Positions 24,327-27,844 of a stretch of 38,248 nucleotides of DNA are shown here, in pieces. Made by a program: the position numbers and the translations under genes. The DNA is from Fidelibacterota bacterium (lineage in GTDB: Bacteria; Fidelibacterota; UBA8477). The notes beneath the pieces were generated by a model. It saw only the letters and a program-made list of their open reading frames with translations. It did not search any database and was not told the origin of the DNA. The stretch's first letter is position 1, and every line of letters starts with the position of its first letter. The stretch covers positions 1 to 38,248 of the forward strand of contig JAIPJR010000016.1 of assembly GCA_021734045.1 (NCBI GenBank), written 5' to 3'.

Positions 24327-24881
24327 TCATGATTTCAAATCCTCTGCCAGGGCGGTTTGAACATCGCCGGATAATTCACTTTCCAATGTCAAATCCGGGT
24401 GATCCGACCCTAAAGCTACCGGGACCTTACCCTGCGTGTCGAATTTTAGGTATTGCACCGAAGAGAGACGGTCCTGACCTAACTGGCGCGGATCGAATTT
24501 AGCATAAGCTTTGGAGCCATCCTTCAATTTGGCATATAAATGCTCAGGGAGTTTTACCCACTGCCGTAATTTCACATCACGCTCCCCTTTGTCATCAATC
24601 TCAATGAGCAGCGTACATCCCAATTCGCCGTCACCACCCAAAATCTCATTGTAGGTATCAATCTCGTGCTGGATATCCTCTTCCCGTACCAACTTCTCAA
24701 TCCGCATCATTTCTTGAATTTGATAGCACATGGTGTCGCGATTTTCAAACAGGAAGGTGAGGTCATCTCCCAGATGAACCCGGCGACGGTCTTTAGCCGC
24801 GAGAACGTCCGGACGAATCTCCTCCCGTTTTTCGGTGTAGGTCATATAATCCAGAATTTCACTTCGTTCGATGGGTTTCAT
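24327..24881 (-). CDS. DUF3501 family protein
   Basis: A 184-residue soluble protein I recognise as DUF3501 from its N-terminal MKPIERSEILDYMTYTEKRE, the RRRVHLGDDLTFLFENRDTM block and the MMRIEKLVREEDIQHEIDTYN segment. The function is not known. Family members typically sit beside rubrerythrin and a two-CCG-domain Fe-S protein, exactly as here, so a part in peroxide or redox defence is likely. It has a single Cys (GELGC) plus the Cys of TMCYQ and no evident metal motif. Its ATG follows the TAA of the DUF1801 gene without a gap (TAAATG), with GAGAGGG as ribosome site, so the two are coupled. It is the last gene of the cluster. Confidence 0.85.
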   Translation of the reverse strand: MKPIERSEILDYMTYTEKREEIRPDVLAAKDRRRVHLGDDLTFLFENRDTMCYQIQEMMRIEKLVREEDIQHEIDTYNEILGGDGELGCTLLIEIDDKGERDVKLRQWVKLPEHLYAKLKDGSKAYAKFDPRQLGQDRLSSVQYLKFDTQGKVPVALGSDHPDLTLESELSGDVQTALAEDLKS

Positions 24882-25265
24882 TTATTTCCCTCTCTTTAAT
24901 TTTACTTTTTCTCTGTTTTCCGCCGCTCTAAACAACACCATTTGCTGGATTACATCGTAAGGAATTGGTTGATCCAGCGGAAATTGCACGGCTCCTTTTG
25001 AGCTTTTGTAAGCTGACAATTCTTTTTGAAACTGCTGGATGCCACTGGGGGCAGGATAAAAACCAATGTGCCTTTTGCATACCGCAAAATGAACCAAATT
25101 ACCATTCAGAAAGAAGGTGGGCATTTGATAACTCATCTTCTCTTCACCGTCAGGAGCGGCTTCCCGAATCGTTAACCGGATTTTTTCCAGAATTTCCTGA
25201 AGCTGAGACGGAAAAGCTGCGATATATCTATCAATGCTATCGGGTATTTGCGCATCAGGTTTCAA
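24882..25265 (-). CDS. DUF1801 domain protein (YdhG-like, frataxin-like fold)
   Basis: A 127-residue protein from the chosen start. The body reads IDRYIAAFPSQLQEILEKIR, then EAAPDGEEKMSYQMPTF and HIGFYPAPSG, the standard DUF1801 pattern. Some members (B. subtilis YdhG) have been described as frataxin-like iron chaperones, which would suit a cluster with rubrerythrin and an Fe-S protein; I infer this only by family and position. The track start at 25310 is a TTG without ribosome site. I prefer the TTG at 25265, preceded by GGAG at 8 bases and giving the usual family N-terminus length. It begins 54 bases after the Fe-S gene and abuts the DUF3501 gene. Confidence 0.82.
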   Translation of the reverse strand: MKPDAQIPDSIDRYIAAFPSQLQEILEKIRLTIREAAPDGEEKMSYQMPTFFLNGNLVHFAVCKRHIGFYPAPSGIQQFQKELSAYKSSKGAVQFPLDQPIPYDVIQQMVLFRAAENREKVKLKRGK

Positions 25266-25319
25266 AGTGAACGCTCCGGTAATTTGAATCCACTTTGAAT
25301 AATTGAGCAAATTGATGTG

Positions 25320-26681
25320 TTATGAGGATGGCTTCTCCTCCGGATCAATCATGGTTTCAAACCCATCCGCCCGATAGGCCCTGGCCAGAACGGACATGGG
25401 ATGCAGTGGTTTCTGACCAGCATGCTGCTCAAACTGAATGGCTGCCAGCGGGCAGTCGGTGGACCAGAGTTCAGCATCGGCGCCTTGAACCCCATCGAAG
25501 GCCTTTTTCCCCAGCCGTTTCGCCGGATCAAAGCCCTCTACTTTCATGGCATAAGTACCATTGTGACCACAGCATTCCATGGTGGTACTGATTTTTACAT
25601 GGGGAATTTTACGCATGAGATCCCGGCCTTTAAAACCCACGGCCTGGGCACGCAAATGACAGGGCACGTGATAGGCGATTTTTTCGCCCGGGGTACTCTT
25701 GAAATCAGTTTTGAAGCGCTCCTGATCACGAATCGACCAGAGGAATTCAGATGGATCATTGATAGCTGCGGCCAGCTTTTCGGCACGCAGTTTGTCCTCT
25801 CCGGTTAGAAGTTCAGGATATTCGCGTCGCATCATCATTGCGCAGGTGGGATTAATGGCCAGGACTTTGGCACCTTTCTCCACATAGGGCAGCAAAATAT
25901 CGATATTTTTCAGAGCATTCTTCTTTAGCTGCTTGTAATCACCCTGCTCCCAGGCTGGCATACCACAGCACACCAGACCATTCACGCACGCTGTATTTAC
26001 GCCATTATGCTCTAATACTTCCAGGGTATCCACACCGATATCCGGCTCGTTGTTTTGAACGAAACAGGTTTGGAACAGGACTGCTTCCGCGCCGGGGTCG
26101 GGTTGAATTTTGCCGCTCTTTTCCGCCCATTTCTCAAATGTGGTCTGGGCAAAATTGGGCAGGAGTTTGTCCCGGTGAATGCCCACGGTTTTTTCCATAA
26201 AGAAACGGGAAATACTTACTTTGTTGGCGAGATTGGCTATGCCGAATGACATCCGTGCCAATTTGGCGGCTCCATCCGGATTTCCCAGCATACGGTCGCG
26301 CAGGGTTTTGCGTTTTTTGGTTGCTCGAACCGCGGTATAACGGTGAACCAGTTTGGGGAAATCGAGCTGGAATTCATGACCATCCCGTGGCGTGTAGGGA
26401 CATTGGACCTCGCATAATTTGCACTGAAAGCAGGCTTCCATGATGTGGTCGGTTTCGTCACTGGTAACCTGCCGGACATCGCCGTCATATTTTTTATCCA
26501 GCAGGTCAAAAAGGGAGGGGAATGCATCGCAGTATTTGAAACACATACGACAGCTGTGACAGATTTCGAATGCGCGCTCGACCTCTTGGCTCAGCAGGGC
26601 CGGATCCCAGTATTTTGCTTCCGTGGGATCGTAGCTTAAACCCTCGCTGGGCAAAAATGAGATGTTCTTCTTTTCATTCAT
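25320..26681 (-). CDS. (Fe-S)-binding CCG-domain oxidoreductase, GlpC/HdrD-like
   Basis: A 453-residue cytoplasmic protein. Two 4Fe-4S motifs occur near the N-terminus (CHSCRMCFKYC and CFQCKLCEVQCPY, ~40-100). Two CCG (cysteine-rich) domains follow: TCFVQNN...VNGLVCCGMPAWEQGD and PCHLRAQ...MECCGHNGTYA. This is the architecture of GlpC and the heterodisulfide reductase HdrD/HdrB family, which pass electrons between Fe-S clusters and a partner. In the rubrerythrin/DUF3501 neighbourhood it may supply electrons to rubrerythrin, which here lacks its own rubredoxin domain; that is an inference. The start at 26681 has AGGGG upstream and is better than the ATG at 26696, which overlaps that site. A terminator between rubrerythrin and this gene implies lower expression or a separate promoter. 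Confidence 0.92.
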   Translation of the reverse strand: MNEKKNISFLPSEGLSYDPTEAKYWDPALLSQEVERAFEICHSCRMCFKYCDAFPSLFDLLDKKYDGDVRQVTSDETDHIMEACFQCKLCEVQCPYTPRDGHEFQLDFPKLVHRYTAVRATKKRKTLRDRMLGNPDGAAKLARMSFGIANLANKVSISRFFMEKTVGIHRDKLLPNFAQTTFEKWAEKSGKIQPDPGAEAVLFQTCFVQNNEPDIGVDTLEVLEHNGVNTACVNGLVCCGMPAWEQGDYKQLKKNALKNIDILLPYVEKGAKVLAINPTCAMMMRREYPELLTGEDKLRAEKLAAAINDPSEFLWSIRDQERFKTDFKSTPGEKIAYHVPCHLRAQAVGFKGRDLMRKIPHVKISTTMECCGHNGTYAMKVEGFDPAKRLGKKAFDGVQGADAELWSTDCPLAAIQFEQHAGQKPLHPMSVLARAYRADGFETMIDPEEKPSS

Positions 26682-26764
26682 GTCGTTTCCCCTCATACGA
26701 ATGTGATTTAATCAGCTGCCGTCACCCTGGTTGCACTGCATGCAATTTGGATTAGGATGGAAAA

Positions 26765-26836: not shown

Positions 26837-27256
26837 TTAGCTGATCGTGTCTAACAGGCTCTGAAAACGGCCGGCATGGGATTTCTCAGCCTTAGCCAGT
26901 GTTTCAAACCAATCGGCAATTTCATTGAAACCTTCTTCGCGGGCAGTCTTGGCCATGCCCGGGTACATGTCGGTGTACTCGTGGGTTTCGCCAGCCACTG
27001 CGGATTTCAGATTGTCAATCGTATCACCAATGGGTAGATCGGTGGCCGGATCGCCGACGGCTTTCAGGTAATCCAGATGGCCGTGGGCGTGGCCGGTTTC
27101 ACCTTCAGCGGTCTCACGGAAATTGGATGCAATTTCCGAGTAACCTTCTACATCAGCGACTTTACCGAAGTATAGGTAGCGACGATTGGCCTGGCTCTCA
27201 CCTGCAAATGCTTCTTTCAGATTATCGTGGGTTTTGCTTCCTTTCAGGTCAGCCAT
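26837..27256 (-). CDS. rubrerythrin, diiron domain only
   Basis: A 139-residue four-helix ferritin-like protein that reduces peroxide with a diiron site. Ligand-bearing blocks are [50 protein letters not shown] and [13 protein letters not shown]. The usual C-terminal rubredoxin domain (two CxxC) is missing: the protein contains no cysteine at all, so electrons must come from another protein. The neighbouring Fe-S protein is a candidate. An AAGGAGG ribosome site precedes the ATG, suggesting high expression. A 17-base palindrome lies ~93 bases upstream and a strong terminator follows, so it is likely an abundant monocistronic message with read-through to the downstream genes. Confidence 0.93.
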
Positions 27257-27348
27257 TTTTTCCTCCTTGAGTTGTTTTTTACTCGTTTCAGCATACCCGC
27301 TTGCTACCGGGATGCCGTTTTTACTTATAAATTGTCAAGCGCGCGTAT

Positions 27349-27378
27349 TTTAGAATGATTCTAAATAGAATGCAATGA
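27349..27378. promoter_or_regulatory. Fur/PerR-type operator upstream of rubrerythrin
   Basis: TTAGAATGATTCTAA (27350-27364) is a perfect 7-1-7 inverted repeat, the architecture of PerR and Fur boxes, extended by one further T/A pair. It continues into ATTCTAAATAGAAT, a second partial palindrome sharing the middle half-site. A minus-strand TTGACA starts about 10 bases further towards rubrerythrin. The Fur-family gene ends 25 bases away, so its product is the obvious ligand. Confidence 0.78.
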
Positions 27379-27389
27379 CAAATAACTGC

Positions 27390-27830
27390 CTACTGTCGTT
27401 TCCCGCGTATCAGAATAGAAATATCATTCACTCGAATATCCTCTGGCAAATTCAGATTGATCTGTACCTGGTCCGACTGGATGTCGTGTAGTGTTCCCGA
27501 ATCCTCATCTAAAAAATGAAAATGAGGTTCGGTATTGCGGTCATAAATGACTTTATCGGAATGGTCAAATCGAATCGCTTGCACCAATCCGGCGGTTTCC
27601 AGCGCGTGAACCGTGTTGTAAACAGTAGCCAGACTAATACCGGGAAATTTAGCATCCACCCAGGCTTTAATATCTTCCACGGACGGATGGTTGGCCTGAT
27701 TCAGGATGTATTGACAAATGGTAAGGCGCTGCGCAGTAGGGCGCATACCCGCCTGTTTCAATTCGCCACGGATTTCTTCCGGGGTCAGCGTGGGATGCGG
27801 GGATTGTTGCGTCATTGGTGATGTTTTCAT
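27390..27830 (-). CDS. Fur-family transcriptional regulator (PerR/Irr-like)
   Basis: A 146-residue DNA-binding regulator. The winged helix covers ~20-90, with GMRPTAQRLTICQYIL, HPSVEDIKAWVDAKFPG and the recognition helix ISLATVYNTVHALETAGLVQ. The metal-sensing part keeps IYDRNTEPHFHF but reads DEDSG where PerR and Fur have CxxC, and the second CxxC near the C-terminus is also absent. Structural zinc is therefore not expected. In this it resembles Irr-type members. It probably controls the rubrerythrin gene through the palindrome just downstream of its own stop. A perfect TATCTTAAGATA palindrome lies immediately upstream of its ATG and might serve autoregulation. It is divergent from the SGNH hydrolase gene. 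Confidence 0.9.
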   Translation of the reverse strand: MKTSPMTQQSPHPTLTPEEIRGELKQAGMRPTAQRLTICQYILNQANHPSVEDIKAWVDAKFPGISLATVYNTVHALETAGLVQAIRFDHSDKVIYDRNTEPHFHFLDEDSGTLHDIQSDQVQINLNLPEDIRVNDISILIRGKRQ

Positions 27831-27832
27831 AC

Positions 27833-27844
27833 TATCTTAAGATA
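27833..27844. promoter_or_regulatory. perfect palindrome at the start of the Fur-family gene
   Basis: TATCTTAAGATA is a perfect 12-base palindrome 2 bases upstream of the regulator's ATG in the divergent promoter gap. It could be an autoregulatory site, but its sequence differs from the rubrerythrin box. Confidence 0.35.

Follow-up and report, generated by a model that had tools for sequence, protein, structure and literature searches.

In a 38,248-nucleotide contig of an uncultured Fidelibacterota bacterium, a member of the phylum formerly known as Marinimicrobia, we found a 17-bp palindrome that is very probably (we would put it at about 0.8) the operator of an adjacent PerRB-like repressor controlling a rubrerythrin (rbr) operon, the pair acting as a local peroxide switch. 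This whole stretch of DNA is called the window below. The observations behind this reading are the sequence itself, its conservation, the co-occurrence across phyla of the same box with one regulator subfamily, and a regulator that has the full set of PerR-type metal ligands together with the specificity Asn.

The palindrome and the rbr promoter region

The palindrome (TTTAGAAT-G-ATTCTAAA, 27349..27365, unstranded) lies in the AT-rich gap of 133 bp between a Fur-family gene (27390..27830, minus strand) and the rubrerythrin gene (26837..27256, minus strand), exactly where a sequence-only reading of this DNA had placed it. Read along the minus strand, on which both genes lie, the box follows the regulator and precedes rubrerythrin, whose start is 93 bp away. 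The perfect 7-1-7 symmetry described in that reading is indeed present, but it extends one base further on each side (8-1-8, not 7-1-7). The core 15-mer TTAGAATGATTCTAA (27350-27364) is perfect and is the sole match at up to three mismatches within the window. Palindromy by itself is weak evidence and hardly remarkable here: under a first-order Markov model, 3.0 perfect palindromes of the 7-1-7 form and 0.9 of the 8-1-8 form are expected in the window, where 3 and 2 are observed, and the probability of one falling inside the 133-bp gap is 0.012 (7-1-7) or 0.0037 (8-1-8). The significance of the box thus rests on conservation and comparison.

Among named genomes, MAGs of Candidatus Neomarinimicrobiota, in the phylum Fidelibacterota, come nearest. 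We aligned the gap of the window species with those of two genomes of the same genus (G001 and G002), in which the gene order is unchanged and the regulator shares 89% and 63% identity with the window copy. All 17 bp of the palindrome are unchanged in both genomes. Exactly these 17 columns form the longest unbroken stretch of identity in the gap, where 40% of the other columns are identical (shuffle P about 7e-5), and the distance from the box to rbr is constant in all three genomes (93-94 bp).

Two further elements singled out by the sequence-only reading are present without being conserved, which leaves a functional role for either unsupported. One is an overlapping second half-site, formed by an AGAAT repeat after the palindrome (27367-27371; TAGAAT, 27366..27371, plus strand). 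The overlapping half-site reads ATTCTA in the window species, and is degenerate in G001 (TTTCTA) and G002 (TTTT); we thus rejected the repeat as a second operator half, and the extra TAGAAT is probably non-functional. The other is a TTGACA on the minus strand (27338-27333), the counterparts of which in the same-genus genomes are TTGCCA and GATGAA. Being neither conserved nor followed by a good -10, it was rejected as a -35. A hexamer match suggests a candidate rbr promoter on the minus strand at 27347..27375 (-35 TTGCAT, 27375-27370; spacer of 17 bp; -10 TAAAAT, 27352-27347), with a weak consensus that could be due to chance. Its layout is kept in G001 (TTGCTT-17-TAAAAT) and roughly kept in G002. 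The palindrome occupies the spacer of this candidate promoter and overlaps its -10. For simple steric repression this arrangement is a better fit than the TTGACA, which is not conserved.

The first gene after the palindrome encodes an aerobic-type rubrerythrin of 139 aa that lacks a rubredoxin domain. It is accompanied on the minus strand by genes for an Fe-S oxidoreductase with CCG domains (RFO, 25320..26696), a DUF1801 protein (24882..25310) and a DUF3501 protein (24327..24881), the last being a constant partner of aerobic-type rubrerythrin (PMC5114695). Rubrerythrin without a rubredoxin domain, RFO and DUF3501 define the published aerobic-type cluster (PMC5114695), and the window has all three; it differs by the insertion of the DUF1801 gene between RFO and DUF3501, where no open reading frame is listed in G001 or G002. 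The terms PerR, promoter and binding site have 0 occurrences each in the text of the paper describing the cluster (PMC5114695), and we came across no publication dealing with the regulation of rubrerythrin in Marinimicrobia. Most of the other rbr-RFO-DUF3501 clusters examined in the phylum (L216-L230) have a Fur-family gene alongside, one that encodes a short CxxC Fur/PerR protein whose DNA helix H4 carries Arg where the window regulator has Asn, and a scan for perfect palindromes found no box before these clusters. The same cluster would thus be under two Fur-family subfamilies within one phylum, which we read as displacement of the regulator.

A cysteine-less regulator and its box across phyla

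The regulator (146 aa) is a member of the Fur superfamily (Pfam FUR, 84.4 bits for a cutoff of 23.1), and its AlphaFold model, predicted with confidence (pLDDT 89), gives Foldseek matches to Fur and PerR structures, DNA-bound Fur included. PerR proteins are characterised by their regulatory metal ligands, which include Asp in place of Glu at PerR position 104, and by an Asn in helix H4 (PMC8638851). The regulator has these ligands (His48, Asp97, His103, His105 and Asp116) and the Asn (Asn72), as does canonical PerR of the Bacillus subtilis type, and His48, Asn72, His103, His105 and Asp116 are invariant in 30 homologues. The CxxC structural zinc site of canonical PerR is absent from its 146 residues. 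A PerR/Fur-type box with an adjacent Fur-family regulator, as proposed by the sequence-only reading, is upheld, but the regulator is not a canonical PerR and comes closest to PerRB and Irr. The spacing of its metal ligands is identical to that of PerRB (His44-Asp93-His99-His101-Asp112), and PerR ligands at this spacing, the Asn and the lack of CxxC together characterise a PerRB-like, Cys-less PerR. Among the NCBIfam models, PerRB (NF047461) scores best with 135.8 bits, below its cutoff of 250; IrrA (86 bits, cutoff 150) and Irr (82.9 bits, cutoff 170) are below theirs as well. With all scores under cutoff, we call the regulator PerRB-like, and not an equivalog of any named family. In a maximum-likelihood tree it falls outside the Irr clade of 8 rows (support 100/99).

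Several known systems resemble the window pair in part. Leptospira PerRB and PerRA have the same ligand spacing, the specificity Asn and no CxxC, PerRB is also the best NCBIfam model, and the autoregulatory sites of perRA have been described as Irr-box-like (PMC8638967); the score short of the PerRB cutoff sets the window regulator apart, as does a box that precedes the rubrerythrin operon and not the regulator gene. PerR of B. subtilis (box TTATAATNATTATAA) shares the 7-1-7 architecture, the five metal ligands, the Asn and peroxide-defence neighbours, but the window regulator lacks the Cys4 structural zinc and the window box carries GAA/TTC steps (TTAGAATNATTCTAA). The perR-rbr operons of deltaproteobacteria (PMC545781) also have the regulator next to rubrerythrin and a palindromic candidate operator, with other operator sequences (e.g. 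AATAGGAATCGTTCCTGTT for D. vulgaris rbr2).

We then turned to 80 named homologues, chosen for protein similarity to the regulator and with no regard to the box; their loci total 590 kb. The 15-mer matched 12, 35 and 23 times in these loci at 0, 1 and 2 mismatches, against 0, 0 and 4 for the reversed sequence used as control. At 0-1 mismatch it adjoins the regulator in 32 of the 80 loci (none in the 590 kb of the reversed control), and nearly all sites in the homologue loci immediately flank the regulator, on its upstream or its downstream side. When loci with a site at up to one mismatch were counted by clade of the maximum-likelihood tree, the box was present in 7 of the 10 loci of the window clade (Fidelibacterota, Bdellovibrionota, Sericytochromatia and Planctomycetota), in 5 of 8 of the alphaproteobacterial Irr clade and in 20 of 32 of the Cys-less Verrucomicrobiota, rows that are not independent, as Opitutae dominate the Verrucomicrobiota set, although the association is still seen separately in several phyla. 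At the same threshold it was found beside none of the CxxC PerR-type regulators (0/8 and 0/3 loci) and in none of the 14 loci of the gut Akkermansia branch. Two of the 10 window-clade loci (L063 and L065) have no box within two mismatches in the region tested; the L065 box is found some 850 bp upstream, next to a fragment of a catalase. At least six bacterial phyla have the box beside cysteine-less PerRB/Irr-type regulators. Among 60 genomes of the window's own phylum, the four with the regulator have 8 sites against 0 in the control, and the other 56 have 70 against 59.

The genes neighbouring box and regulator are mostly peroxide genes (the names KatG, Dps, AhpD-like and SufC were assigned by sequence reading beyond the Pfam match). 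They encode AhpC with an AhpD-like protein in Oligoflexia (L060) and Bacteriovoracaceae (L067), catalase (a fragment in L065; L048/L066), Dps with a ZIP transporter (L048, L049) and a pyridine-nucleotide disulphide oxidoreductase (L062); at the Irr genes of Pelagibacteraceae (L110, L112, L118 and L124) the box occupies the intergenic space ahead of a gene for a KatG-like peroxidase. In the Opitutae locus L076, a gene for a SufC-like ABC protein neighbours box and regulator, and suf-like genes follow the regulator. This recurrence beside homologous regulators in several phyla, mostly by peroxide-defence genes, supports at the sequence level the earlier proposal of a concrete operator for the cluster. 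As a separate observation, two boxes about 29 bp apart lie upstream of the regulator in Opitutae (L072, L076, L078, L083-L086, L090 and others).

Regulon search and competing explanations

The sequence-only reading had also offered the 15-mer as a search string for a regulon, and in this use it failed: the window genome has 90 matches at up to three mismatches against 103 in the control, and there is no excess at up to two mismatches in the same-genus genomes (10 against 13 in G001, 10 against 9 in G002). At up to one mismatch the window genome contains two sites, the rbr box and C8:15421, before a TonB-dependent receptor gene. The latter was rejected as an operator, being retained with an alteration in G001, lost in G002 and inside an inverted repeat. 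This repeat (GGGGTTACC...GGTAACCCC, L051:5300-5480, on contig C8 of the window genome G000) sits between a gene end and the receptor gene and is conserved in all three genomes of the genus. Other sites with two mismatches (before zapA-like and EF-G-like genes, so named by sequence reading) have no redox or iron link and were treated as chance. A search of three further genomes at up to one mismatch gave a total of 5 sites, 4 of which adjoin the regulator. The failure of the string in the window genome makes the regulator look local, and the 4 of 5 sites beside the regulator elsewhere suggest that the system is local too.

Against the operator reading stand the weak consensus of the candidate promoter, the two window-clade loci lacking a box within two mismatches in the region tested, and the presence in the window genome of two regulators of the same subfamily, each of which could use the box. 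The second regulator, a Cys-less paralogue (C2:2729-3136 in G000) followed by dps and ZIP transporter genes (locus L049:2663-4505), is 44-45% identical to the window regulator, has the same helix residues and has a degenerate box upstream (TTTGAGTTATTCTAA, two mismatches; its G001 counterpart TTAGAGTTATTCTAA has one). Binding of the rbr operator by this paralogue, mainly or jointly, would make the rbr operon cross-regulated with dps-ZIP. We consider this improbable: each box adjoins its own regulator; in both species it is the same arm of the paralogue box that deviates, which suggests that the two specificities are separate; and G002 has a perfect rbr box yet yielded no close paralogue (next match E 6.9e-9, 33% identity). 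It is scarcely credible that the palindrome arose by chance in an AT-rich gap. A window like this should contain some three perfect 7-1-7 palindromes, and the degenerate scan of the genome revealed no enrichment, but exact conservation within the genus contradicts a chance origin, as does the recurrence of the box beside homologous regulators across phyla.

The main rival explanation bears on the signal. The regulator may be functionally an Irr, using the same box, responding to iron or heme and repressing the iron-rich rubrerythrin operon at low iron, with peroxide as at most a secondary signal. The box is of the Irr-box type, its sequence being shared with Irr loci: TTAGAATAATTCCAA and TTAGAATTATTATAA stand beside Irr-type genes (likeness to the Irr box or ICE being judged from these loci). 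The Rhodospirillaceae locus L075, whose regulator scores 172 bits as IrrA (cutoff 150), has Irr, box, rbr, RFO and DUF3501 in an order identical to that of the window. It has been argued that PerRA and PerRB of Leptospira are closer to Irr and regulate iron in its manner (PMC8638967). In Bradyrhizobium, a rubrerythrin-like gene is bound and repressed by Irr (PMC3413700), and the window regulator has an HxH motif. Given that argument and the use of the same box by Irr proper, iron or heme may be what is sensed. We nevertheless regard an Irr function as rather unlikely for this Fidelibacterota protein, which stands apart from Irr in the tree; it scores 135.8 bits as PerRB against 83-86 as Irr, lacks the heme-regulatory Cys-Pro motif, has the full five-ligand PerR metal site, and belongs to a clade whose neighbouring genes encode peroxidases and not heme functions.

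The proposed switch and its setting

In the peroxide switch that we favour, the regulator, made from its own promoter and devoid of structural zinc, would bind the operator as a metal-loaded homodimer and block the promoter of the rbr-RFO-(DUF1801)-DUF3501 operon, the -10 of which the operator probably overlaps. Peroxide would oxidise the metal-site histidines, the dimer would be released and the rubrerythrin peroxidase system would be made. One regulator would serve one operator, as a local switch and not a large regulon, and the paralogue would control a second small operon (itself, dps and ZIP) through the related box. Binding, repression, transcription as an operon, and peroxide rather than iron as the signal are what we infer from sequence.

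This kind of operator is already known, as the Irr box or the PerR box, and the window site is a new, well-supported example of it. It suggests which regulator and operator an uncultured lineage uses for the aerobic-type rubrerythrin cluster. The so-called Irr box appears to serve a wider range of cysteine-less regulators of the Fur family, in the neighbourhood of peroxide genes. A defined regulator-operator pair also provides a means to test peroxide against iron sensing by PerRB-type proteins, which is debated for Leptospira PerRA and PerRB. It is possible, though somewhat less likely than not, that the operator code TTAGAATNATTCTAA and the Cys-less PerRB/Irr branch form one ancient, portable peroxide/iron switch, found in at least six phyla, that displaced CxxC PerR before rbr-RFO-DUF3501 within Fidelibacterota and of which Irr is one specialised offshoot. 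Irr would then derive from a wider PerRB-type family and would not be an alphaproteobacterial invention.

Two other elements lie near the palindrome. No box was found ahead of the regulator's own gene, so that autoregulation through the 17-bp box is not indicated for the window copy; a different palindrome (TATCTTAAGATA, 27833-27844) stands there instead, immediately upstream of the regulator start and within a block conserved in the genus (partly in G002). It is unique in the genome and thus not a regulon-wide site. In the 5' leader of rbr there is a stem-loop (27289-27317, minus strand), its position kept and its sequence altered in G001 and G002; it may act as a leader element or be a relic resembling a terminator.
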